Of a stretch of DNA of 64,000 nucleotides, positions 3,301-6,300 are shown one piece after another. Origin of the DNA: Sacculina carcini. Lineage: Eukaryota > Arthropoda > Thecostraca > Sacculinidae. Each line of letters begins with the position of its first letter. Position 1 is the stretch's first letter. A program made the translations under genes and the position numbers. The stretch covers positions 67,001 to 131,000 of the forward strand of contig OU696571.1 of assembly GCA_916048095.2 (NCBI GenBank), read 5' to 3'. Below the pieces are notes generated by a model, which saw only the letters and a list, made by a program, of their open reading frames with translations, had not been told where the DNA came from and searched no databases.

Positions 3301-6300
3301 GTCCAGGTACCACAGGTTCAATGGCGACTGGAGAGACTGGGCCACTGGGTCGACTGCGAGGGCGAACAAGATGGGCCCGAGCGGGTCTCCCTGCTGTACA
3401 CCGCGACAGGACCAGATTCGCGTGGTGCCGTGGTACAGTGGGGTTGGCTGGCCGTACGCCTGCTGGACGAGCGGCAATGCTGTGGGTAAACGACGGGCGA
3501 CTTCGTCGAGCAGCGCGCGCCGACTGAGGGTGTTGAAGGCGTTGGTCACATCCAGCTTCAGCAGAATGTGACCATGCCGACCGTTAGCCTCATTGACGAA
3601 AGCGCGCGTGGCGTGCACGGCCGCTTCGCAGCCCAGCTTGCACCCCACTCCGAGCTGAACGGGGCGCAACTGCTGTGCGACTGCGCTCGTCATTTTGCCA
3701 GCGATCAGTTTGCTGGCGAGGCGCCGCAAAACACTGCCGACGGCTACTGGGCGCAGCCCGCCGGACTTCTTGCGCAATGCGATTAGTCGCGCGCTGTAGA
3801 ATGCGCCGAGCACGAAGTCCGGGATGCGACCCTGTACACAACAGTTGCACAGCTGCGTCAGTGCCTTCAGCAGCTGGGCACCCGCTTCAGCCGTCTGTGG
3901 CGCGATGAGCTGGCGGAGATGTAGCGGCCGTATTCCGTCCAGTCCTCCCGATGAGCCTTTGGGCATCGAGTGCACGACGGAGCGGATCTTGAGCTCCTCA
4001 AAAATCGGCAGTGTTCCGGCGTCATGCATCTGCAGCTGCTCGTCCGGCAATGCAGGCGGGTGCTTGCGCTCGAGCTCGGCGGTCACTGCCTCGTCGTCCC
4101 CGGCCAAGCAGTCGCTGGATGTCAGCAGGCGGAGCGCTGCACCAATGTCTCCATCGGCGCACTTGGCTCTGACGCCGCGGGATCTGGCCTCGTTTTCGTC
4201 GTGCTGTGATCGCCCTCGGTTTTGTGTGCCCCGCTTCTTCCTTGCTGCTGCGTCGGAGCTGATCGGACCCGTCAAGGCGTATGACAGCAGCTTCCACCAG
4301 GCCGAGAGGGAGCGCTGTTCCAGAGCCGCCGTGATGTGCTGTGCGAGGTCGGCTGCCACCCGATGACGCAGCGCACGTGGGACGTGCTGACGCACTCGGC
4401 GTTGCTGTCTGAGCTCGGCAAGCGCCGCAGCCAGGTCTGTCGGAGTAGTGGTGTTAACGTCGGCTGGCGGGTCCACGTCGCCATCCGCACCGCGGCTCTG
4501 CATGCACGCACCGCAATGCCACACCGGCAAGACGTCGGCTTGTGCCCGGGTGATTCCCACGCAAGTGAGGTGGAATAACCGCTCACATTGCGCGCAGGAA
4601 ATCACCCGCCTTCTGCTGTTGGCAGTGCCGCAGTGATGACACGGCTGCGCGGGGTCGGATCCCGTGTCTGCGCTGGGGGCCCGCTCGGCCTGAATTCCGA
4701 CTGCTTGGCAACGGGCTAGACGGCACGGTGCACACGATCTGTCGTGCGGAGTGAGACGGCAGCTGCCTCCACGGTCGCACTGTCTCCCCCGCACGCCGCT
4801 GTCCTGGTGTCGCCGCCAGAATATGTCGCATGCTCTGCAGAGAGCCACATCATTGTGCGTCTGTCGCACTCCGTTTTTAGAGTCACAAACAGCGCACGAC
4901 AAATGATGTAGCTCTTGCGTCATTGCAGGCTACAATTACACAAAACTATATACACACATTATTCAATATACACGAATTTCACTGGCACAATGTGGGTGGT
5001 CGATGACTAGAAGGGTGGGTATGACTAGAAGGGGAAACACTGGCACAATAAACACACTGGCACACTGGGGTATTTACACGCGCAGTCGTCCTGCGTAACG
5101 GCCACCGCGATGATTGATGGTGACAGGTGTCACGGTAAACGTGTAAACACGCGACCGGACACGCTCACAAAATCGCGCGAGCACTTTTAAATACACACCT
5201 AACCTAACTGAGGAGCCGGGCCACAGAGACAACCTTCTCCGGTGAAGGACTGAACAAGACTGTGTGTGTGTGTGTGTGTGTGTGTAATTTGTAATTTGTA
5301 ATTTCAAATGTATTGCCATCATCATCAACAAACATCAGTAACATAGCAGTGGTGTGTGTGTGTGTGTGTGTGTGTGTGTGTGTGTGTGTGTGTGTGTGTG
5401 TGTGTGTGTAATTTGTAATTTGTAATTTCAAATGTATTGCCATCATCATCAACAAACATCAGTAACATAGCAGTGGTGAGAGGCATCAATTCGTCGAGCC
5501 ACAGCTCCCTGACGAACGAATATCAAATACAACTTTCACATGAAATTATGAACAGTAATGGCAAATTTGGCAAAAATACAAAACGAAGACAAGAATTAAA
5601 CACTCATATATAGCAAGCTCATAGTTGAAAACACGGTTATACACGACAACGAGAACAGTAACTGCAGGAAGAGTTACAACAAGCTCAAAACCGTACAGAC
5701 TGCTTGGTGACTTCAACGTTGGTTTTGCAAAGTCAGGTAATGTTTCTTAATTTTGGTTTTAAATGTAGCATATGAAGTTCTAGTGAGATCGGATTTAAGT
5801 TCAATAGGAAGTTGGTTAAAAATTGCAGGTCCATTGCAAAATATACTGTTTTTGAAAAGAGTTGTTCGAAATCCAGGGCAACTAATATTAACAGCATTAC
5901 TCCTGGTTGGACGGTTGCTGTTGACAAATTTAAATGCGTCTCCATGTTTCATGTTTTTATATATGCTAAGAAGTGTATATACTTTGTGAAGATTTGGGAA
6001 ATTAAGGAGTTGTGATGTCTTGAGGCATTTTTCAGTCGATTCAAATTTTTTCAAAAAGAAGATACAGCGAAAGAATTTCTTCTGGGACACAGCTATTTTA
6101 TCAATAAAAGTTGGCCATGTACTCGCCTAATTGAAATACAATAGATTAAATGAGAGTGAAAAAGTGTATAATATATTGTAATCATGGATTCAGTAGTGAG
6201 ATTATGCCGTATTCTATACATAATCCCTGTTAATTTCGATAATTTAAGACAAAGTTGATCAATATGTGGTCTCCAATTAAGATTTTCATCAACGATAACT

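Follow-up and report, generated by a model that had tools for sequence, protein, structure and literature searches.

A nuclear-receptor-type zinc-finger domain in an R2-type retrotransposon residing in AC repeats of Sacculina carcini

Described systems and the element in the window

The target of R2 retrotransposons is 28S ribosomal DNA (rDNA), and their protein combines a Myb domain with between one and three fingers of C2H2/CCHC type, according to a 2026 survey of R2 N-termini (PMC13188248, as excerpted). In R2Bm, the N-terminal zinc finger (ZnF) and Myb locate the target, and nicking is absent without them (PMC10499050, as excerpted). Microsatellite targets are known for other elements of the restriction-like-endonuclease type, and the Togen families of fish, which stand near NeSL/HERO, are specific for (TG)n (PMC4640811, as excerpted). 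Here we analyzed a 64,000-nt stretch of the Sacculina carcini genome (contig OU696571.1, positions 67,001 to 131,000; hereafter the window), which contains a full-length retrotransposon lacking long terminal repeats (non-LTR) whose single open reading frame (ORF) begins with a nuclear-receptor-type DNA-binding domain (DBD), followed by a PHD finger and a reverse transcriptase (RT).

Sequence and predicted fold mark the element as an autonomous R2-type non-LTR retrotransposon with a predicted restriction-like endonuclease. Modelled as a whole with AlphaFold (17 rows), the ORF reached a mean predicted local distance difference test (pLDDT) of 79.9, and the top structure matches of this model were the solved R2 proteins of silkworm, zebra finch and Platysternon, with expectation values (E) of 1e-21 to 4e-20. 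In the C-terminal part, C852, C854, H864 and C868 of a CCHC knuckle are each kept in 90% or more of 38 rows, and the PD and D of residues 911–928, which we take to be the PD...D motif of the restriction-like endonuclease, are invariant across 4 aligned rows. The first-pass annotation had placed a complete PHD finger at residues 95–140, ahead of RT and a restriction-like endonuclease, which the Pfam matches and the R2-like fold bear out; for the element as a whole (receptor-type DBD, PHD, RT and R2-type C-terminus), profile, sequence, whole-ORF fold and relatives agree. Positions 4504–4896 (−) of the window, to which that annotation referred, are the codons for residues 10–140 of ORF 1837–4923. 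A whole-ORF Pfam scan (E up to 10) gave no match to a CCHH finger or to Myb, no Pfam match to an APE domain was found in the ORF, and an RNA-family scan of 1700–5400 returned six sub-threshold matches, the R2-type ribozyme not among them.

The element thus shares with R2 the single ORF, an N-terminal DNA-binding module, RT, CCHC knuckle, restriction-like endonuclease and overall fold, and differs from it in having a C4 receptor-type DBD with a PHD finger and an AC-repeat target. With Togen it shares the restriction-like-endonuclease non-LTR group and the same dinucleotide repeat as target; compared by description, neither a receptor DBD nor a PHD finger is mentioned for Togen in the excerpts of PMC4640811. 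What it has in common with nuclear receptors is the zf-C4 DNA-binding domain, here fused to a retrotransposon protein; a Pfam scan of the ORF up to E 10 found no ligand-binding domain, and the DBD alone is common to it and the receptors. The element is of a known kind, a restriction-like-endonuclease retrotransposon with a microsatellite target. The first-pass annotation knew of no described element with a receptor-type DBD, and the open-licence full texts of PubMed Central (PMC) likewise yielded no published description of one. The main text of the survey of R2 N-termini contains neither 'nuclear receptor' nor 'PHD' (PMC13188248), and the UniRef name of one relative, P0075, already refers to its receptor domain.

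The receptor-type domain in the ORF, its copies and its relatives

A profile search of the whole ORF with zf-C4 (PF00105) matched residues 9–78 at 27.4 bits (E 4.8e-6; curated cut-off 21.1), and the score rose to 34.1 bits (E 3.7e-8) for residues 1–91 alone. The nine cysteines of the domain (10, 13, 29, 32, 49, 55, 64, 67 and 72) include all eight of the zinc type (CxxC...CxxC, Cx5C...CxxC), and two loops, of 15 and 8 residues, differ from the 13 and 9 usual in receptor DBDs. Cysteine order and spacers on the minus strand are exactly as the first-pass annotation gave them, and both motifs it had named, CDIFWRR and CRLARCQAVGI, are present; the profile search it had proposed lies above the curated cut-off. 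The nearest solved structures for residues 1–94 are the DNA-binding domains of vitamin D receptor, LXR and ERR (E about 4e-5), and with the whole ORF as query the values did not fall below 1.2e-3. Receptor DBDs fold in the order hairpin, recognition helix, second helix, and the full model gives strand (E) and helix (H) elements in the order E20–23, E26–29, H30–40 and H65–74, with pLDDT of 43–67 there by blocks. Prediction of the DBD by itself was poor (pLDDT 48.6, two rows), and in fold searches with that model the 50 matches listed per search were all receptors, none of them strong.

The relatives of the ORF support the assignment most strongly. Two homologue searches, in which the best 7993 and 7996 candidates by most words in common were scored, found three further RT proteins with an N-terminal zf-C4: P0024 (56.3 bits, E 4.4e-15), P0075 from Petrolisthes cinctipes (44.2 bits) and P0002 (34.3 bits). 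Including the window ORF (P0001), there are at least four carriers, a lower bound set by the number of candidates scored. Used by itself as a query, the P0024 domain found chains of the androgen and retinoic acid receptors with E of about 1e-14, and the cysteine spacers of P0024 (2-14-2-14-5-9-2-4) and P0075 (2-13-2-14-5-9-2-4, one extra cysteine omitted) are near the receptor canon. A search with residues 1–145 of P0002 (46 candidates) matched only P0002 itself, and viral contigs gave no match to P0002 patterns.

The nine cysteines might instead form a convergent zinc module unrelated to the receptor DBD, for which the two unusual loop lengths and the poor DBD-only model would speak. We consider this highly improbable, as zf-C4 matched none of ten cysteine-fixed shuffles of residues 1–91 (E up to 10), and the zf-C4 scores and near-canonical spacers of the P0024 and P0075 domains, together with the receptor matches of the P0024 domain, speak against it. 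A chance cysteine pattern is ruled out by the same shuffles and by the homologous domains in relatives. On sequence grounds, the N-terminal domain of the window ORF is a true nuclear-receptor-type zf-C4 homologue.

Midpoint rooting of a tree of 38 RT sequences placed all four carriers within one clade of 13 rows (support 100/100), on either side of its first split, which answers the call of the first-pass annotation for an RT phylogeny. Eight of the other nine rows start too far along for their N-termini to be judged: within the DBD or at its end, within or behind the PHD finger, or in RT. The ninth, P0019, has 68 residues before its PHD finger in which zf-C4 was not found, a case of loss, frame change or wrong prediction. 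Clade members with a species name are P0075 and P0038 (Chionoecetes opilio; the record starts in RT), and a named sister outside the clade is P0017 from the barnacle Amphibalanus amphitrite. Among the 38 rows, domain matches at E up to 0.01 comprise 26 PHD, four zf-C4 and three ubiquitin carboxyl-terminal hydrolase (UCH), and sisters outside the carrier clade have PHD only or PHD with ubiquitin hydrolase. The relatives P0005, P0007 and P0009 (PHD only) as well as P0006, P0013 and P0017 (PHD or ubiquitin hydrolase), all outside that clade, have the same RT and C-terminal type as the window element; unlike it, all six are without zf-C4, and some have a C-terminal UCH. Because the carriers sit in one clade and sisters possess PHD without the DBD, a single ancestral capture is likeliest, in line with the earlier proposal that a host DBD was captured by the element; the simplest reading places one DBD gain at the base of the 13-row clade. 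The same sisters suggest that PHD probably predates the DBD in this lineage, so that the finger pair would have arisen in two steps.

Besides RT, P0006, P0011, P0013 and P0017 carry a ubiquitin carboxyl-terminal hydrolase domain. In Amphibalanus amphitrite records, proteins of this sort are labelled ubiquitin hydrolase 38 or 2; here the name of a host gene probably stands for a retrotransposon protein.

Within the genome (264 Mb, 43 contigs), the best 40 of 95 candidate copies were scored, and every one contains the DBD–PHD stretch at 97–100% identity. The first-pass annotation had asked whether other copies share this N-terminus; its presence in 40/40 rules out a chance upstream frame. Seven of the nine cysteines are kept in all 40 copies and C55 and C67 in 39; in one copy, L019, codon 76 is a stop, and 19/40 cover the ORF completely, in register with the window and free of indels and stops. 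Counted over distinct variants, the ratio of nonsynonymous to synonymous polymorphism (pN/pS) is 0.35 for the DBD (23 nonsynonymous, N; 21 synonymous, S), 0.34 for PHD (10 N, 9 S), 0.99 for the linker between them (8 N, 3 S) and 0.47 for the whole ORF; weighted by copies, it is 0.27 for the DBD and 0.11 for PHD. With small counts and the shared ancestry of copies, these ratios serve as support and do not constitute a formal test. The receptor-type domain is retained among copies with few amino-acid changes.

Insertion in AC repeats and the reading of the target

A flank was counted as positive if its nearest 60 nt (5' side) or 100 nt (3' side) held (AC)4 or a longer run. Such a repeat was found 5' of 34 and 3' of 37 of the 40 copies; 32 had it on both sides and 39 on at least one, a setting other than the 28S rDNA insertion that defines the R2 clade. 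(GT)4 adjoined none of the 40 copies on either side. These values include one copy (L041) whose 5' flank consists of N and was scored as a miss. The exception, L044, sits in an ACAT array, and other copies are in mixed ACA-rich arrays, so that the target is better described as simple repeat rich in ACA than as pure AC. Genome-wide, 20 of the 28 exact full-length 5' ends lie directly behind ACACA plus one base. For comparison, the 3' flanks of an abundant control long interspersed nuclear element (LINE), taken as 31026–34331 of a feature at about 30250–34331 (−), had AC in 0/21 and GT in 1/21 cases, and 1547 overlapping background windows from 17 arbitrary kb contained (AC)4 in 3.3% and GT in 3.7%. 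An initial measure over 30 nt (AC share ≥0.6) gave 28/40 on the 5' side, 23/40 on the 3' side, 35 on either, 16 on both and no GT, the lower numbers being due in part to A-rich tails. By this measure 176/1379 background pieces beside copies were AC-rich and 18/1379 GT-rich, implying that AC-rich DNA extends around the copies. Impure arrays, with units containing ACTAAC or ACAT, run on across both sides of several copies, and impure repeat pieces shared by both sides, candidate target-site duplications, are indistinguishable from the array itself. Copies of the element thus sit in (AC)n and other simple repeats rich in ACA and share one orientation relative to them.

In one place (about 5.954–5.959 Mb of G000:C31), copies L009 and L010 stand head to tail, 3.76 kb apart, with an AC repeat between them, an arrangement that suggests repeated use of one array.

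Such a distribution could also result from wide landing, with AC arrays as mere sites of survival or arrays that expanded after insertion. By the background frequency, AC arrays are no rarity here, and a second LINE family, described below, also ends at them. We nevertheless regard this explanation as unlikely: the polarity argues for recognition of the repeat over survival in harmless DNA, arrays flank most copies on both sides, none of the 21 3' flanks of the abundant control LINE of the same genome has one, and the impure arrays continue on both sides, as expected of an array older than the insertion.

How the array is recognized is suggested by R2, whose targets are found via N-terminal DNA-binding domains. 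We infer, with somewhat better than even confidence, that in an R2-type element whose ancestor gained a receptor-type DBD in front of the PHD finger, it is this DBD that reads the AC array. The receptor-type domain would dock on the AC/TG repeat in the way the R2 zinc finger and Myb dock upstream of the nick, and PHD may add a contact with chromatin. The endonuclease would then nick the TG strand, whose 3' end would prime reverse transcription from the A-rich tail. Steering of integration by the finger pair, as the first-pass annotation had proposed, is plausible given that R2Bm needs its N-terminal domains to nick and that the AC target here is sharply defined. P-box residues vary across the four carriers and are, as we take it, unlike those of receptors, so under this model the base readout must have changed. 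Rather more tentatively, and short of an even chance, the DBD may have been taken over and its recognition helix re-specified for AC/TG repeats, a mostly harmless target available genome-wide, with the different P-boxes marking different targets.

Several observations weigh against this assignment. The link from the DBD to the AC target is drawn by analogy with R2, PHD occurs in relatives lacking the DBD, and Pfam PHD does not match P0024 up to E 0.1, though a cysteine-rich stretch is present at the place of the finger; in P0075, a cysteine-rich stretch at that place scores 21.4 bits with Pfam PHD, below the cut-off of 24. In addition, an APE-type LINE adjacent to the element (about 5500–8297, −), whose APE and RVT_1 pieces stand in different frames, lies between AC arrays at 5338–5424 and 8308–8597 (−), and the 3' ends of its copies are at AC arrays in 18/20 cases and at GT in 0/20 (3' side only). 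This LINE was dropped as a negative control for that reason. Its ORF pieces contain no zf-C4, and AC arrays are evidently reachable by other means. It is possibly a second AC-targeting LINE family, of the other endonuclease type.

It is also reasonably likely, though we give it less weight, that the domain is a true receptor-type DBD and AC is chosen elsewhere, by the endonuclease, RT loops, region 141–300 or PHD; the DBD would then provide general DNA affinity, bind the element's own RNA or 5' DNA, or act in element transcription. The sisters with PHD and RT but no DBD, the adjacent LINE and the varying P-boxes all fit this alternative. Against it, the DBD is as constrained as PHD by distinct variants, if not by the copy-weighted ratios given above, and R2Bm nicking depends on the N-terminal DNA-binding domains (PMC10499050, as excerpted).

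For target reading by the DBD, the interest lies in what could be learned from it. Restriction-like-endonuclease elements are known for exact targets, the R2Bm target is found by N-terminal DNA-binding modules, and the base readout of receptor DBDs is among the best understood. With a receptor DBD in the position of the R2 fingers, the way in which a retrotransposon chooses its target could be put to a direct test, and a domain of transcription factors would be seen to have entered a selfish element.

Features and further elements of the window

The coordinates of the element and its parts are collected in Table 1; its 3' untranslated stretch comprises 50 bases.

Table 1. Parts of the retrotransposon and its flanking repeats, in window coordinates
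Feature	Position	Strand	Basis or remark
Full-length non-LTR retrotransposon, 3474 bases without tail	1787..5260	−	Ends from alignment of 40 copies and flanks
5' leader	4924..5260	−	Between 5' end and ORF start
Single intact ORF, 1028 amino acids	1837..4923	−	
A-rich 3' tail	1769..1786	−	
AC repeat (target), 5' side of insertion	5261..5300	−	Directly adjoins element
AC repeat (target), 3' side of insertion	1725..1768	−	Directly adjoins element
Nuclear-receptor-type C4 zinc-finger DBD, residues 9–78	4690..4899	−	Pfam zf-C4, 27.4 bits
PHD finger, residues 95–140	4504..4641	−	Pfam PHD, 27.8 bits (cut-off 24)
Reverse transcriptase, residues 384–579	3187..3774	−	Pfam RVT_1, 62.4 bits
CCHC knuckle, residues 852–868	2320..2370	−	Conserved residues and R2-like ORF fold
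Presumed PD...D motif of predicted restriction-like endonuclease, residues 911–928	2140..2193	−	Conserved residues and R2-like ORF fold

The LINE used as a control above is of the APE type, ends in an (AAT)n tail and is abundant, with 1955 candidates at first look. Among the best 40 scored, 15 matched the query over its full length at 100% (rounded), the window's own copy included, and this LINE represents a recent burst. Toward the end of the window, at 61409–63561, lies a GT-rich array of more than 2 kb with a period near 25 bases by eye.
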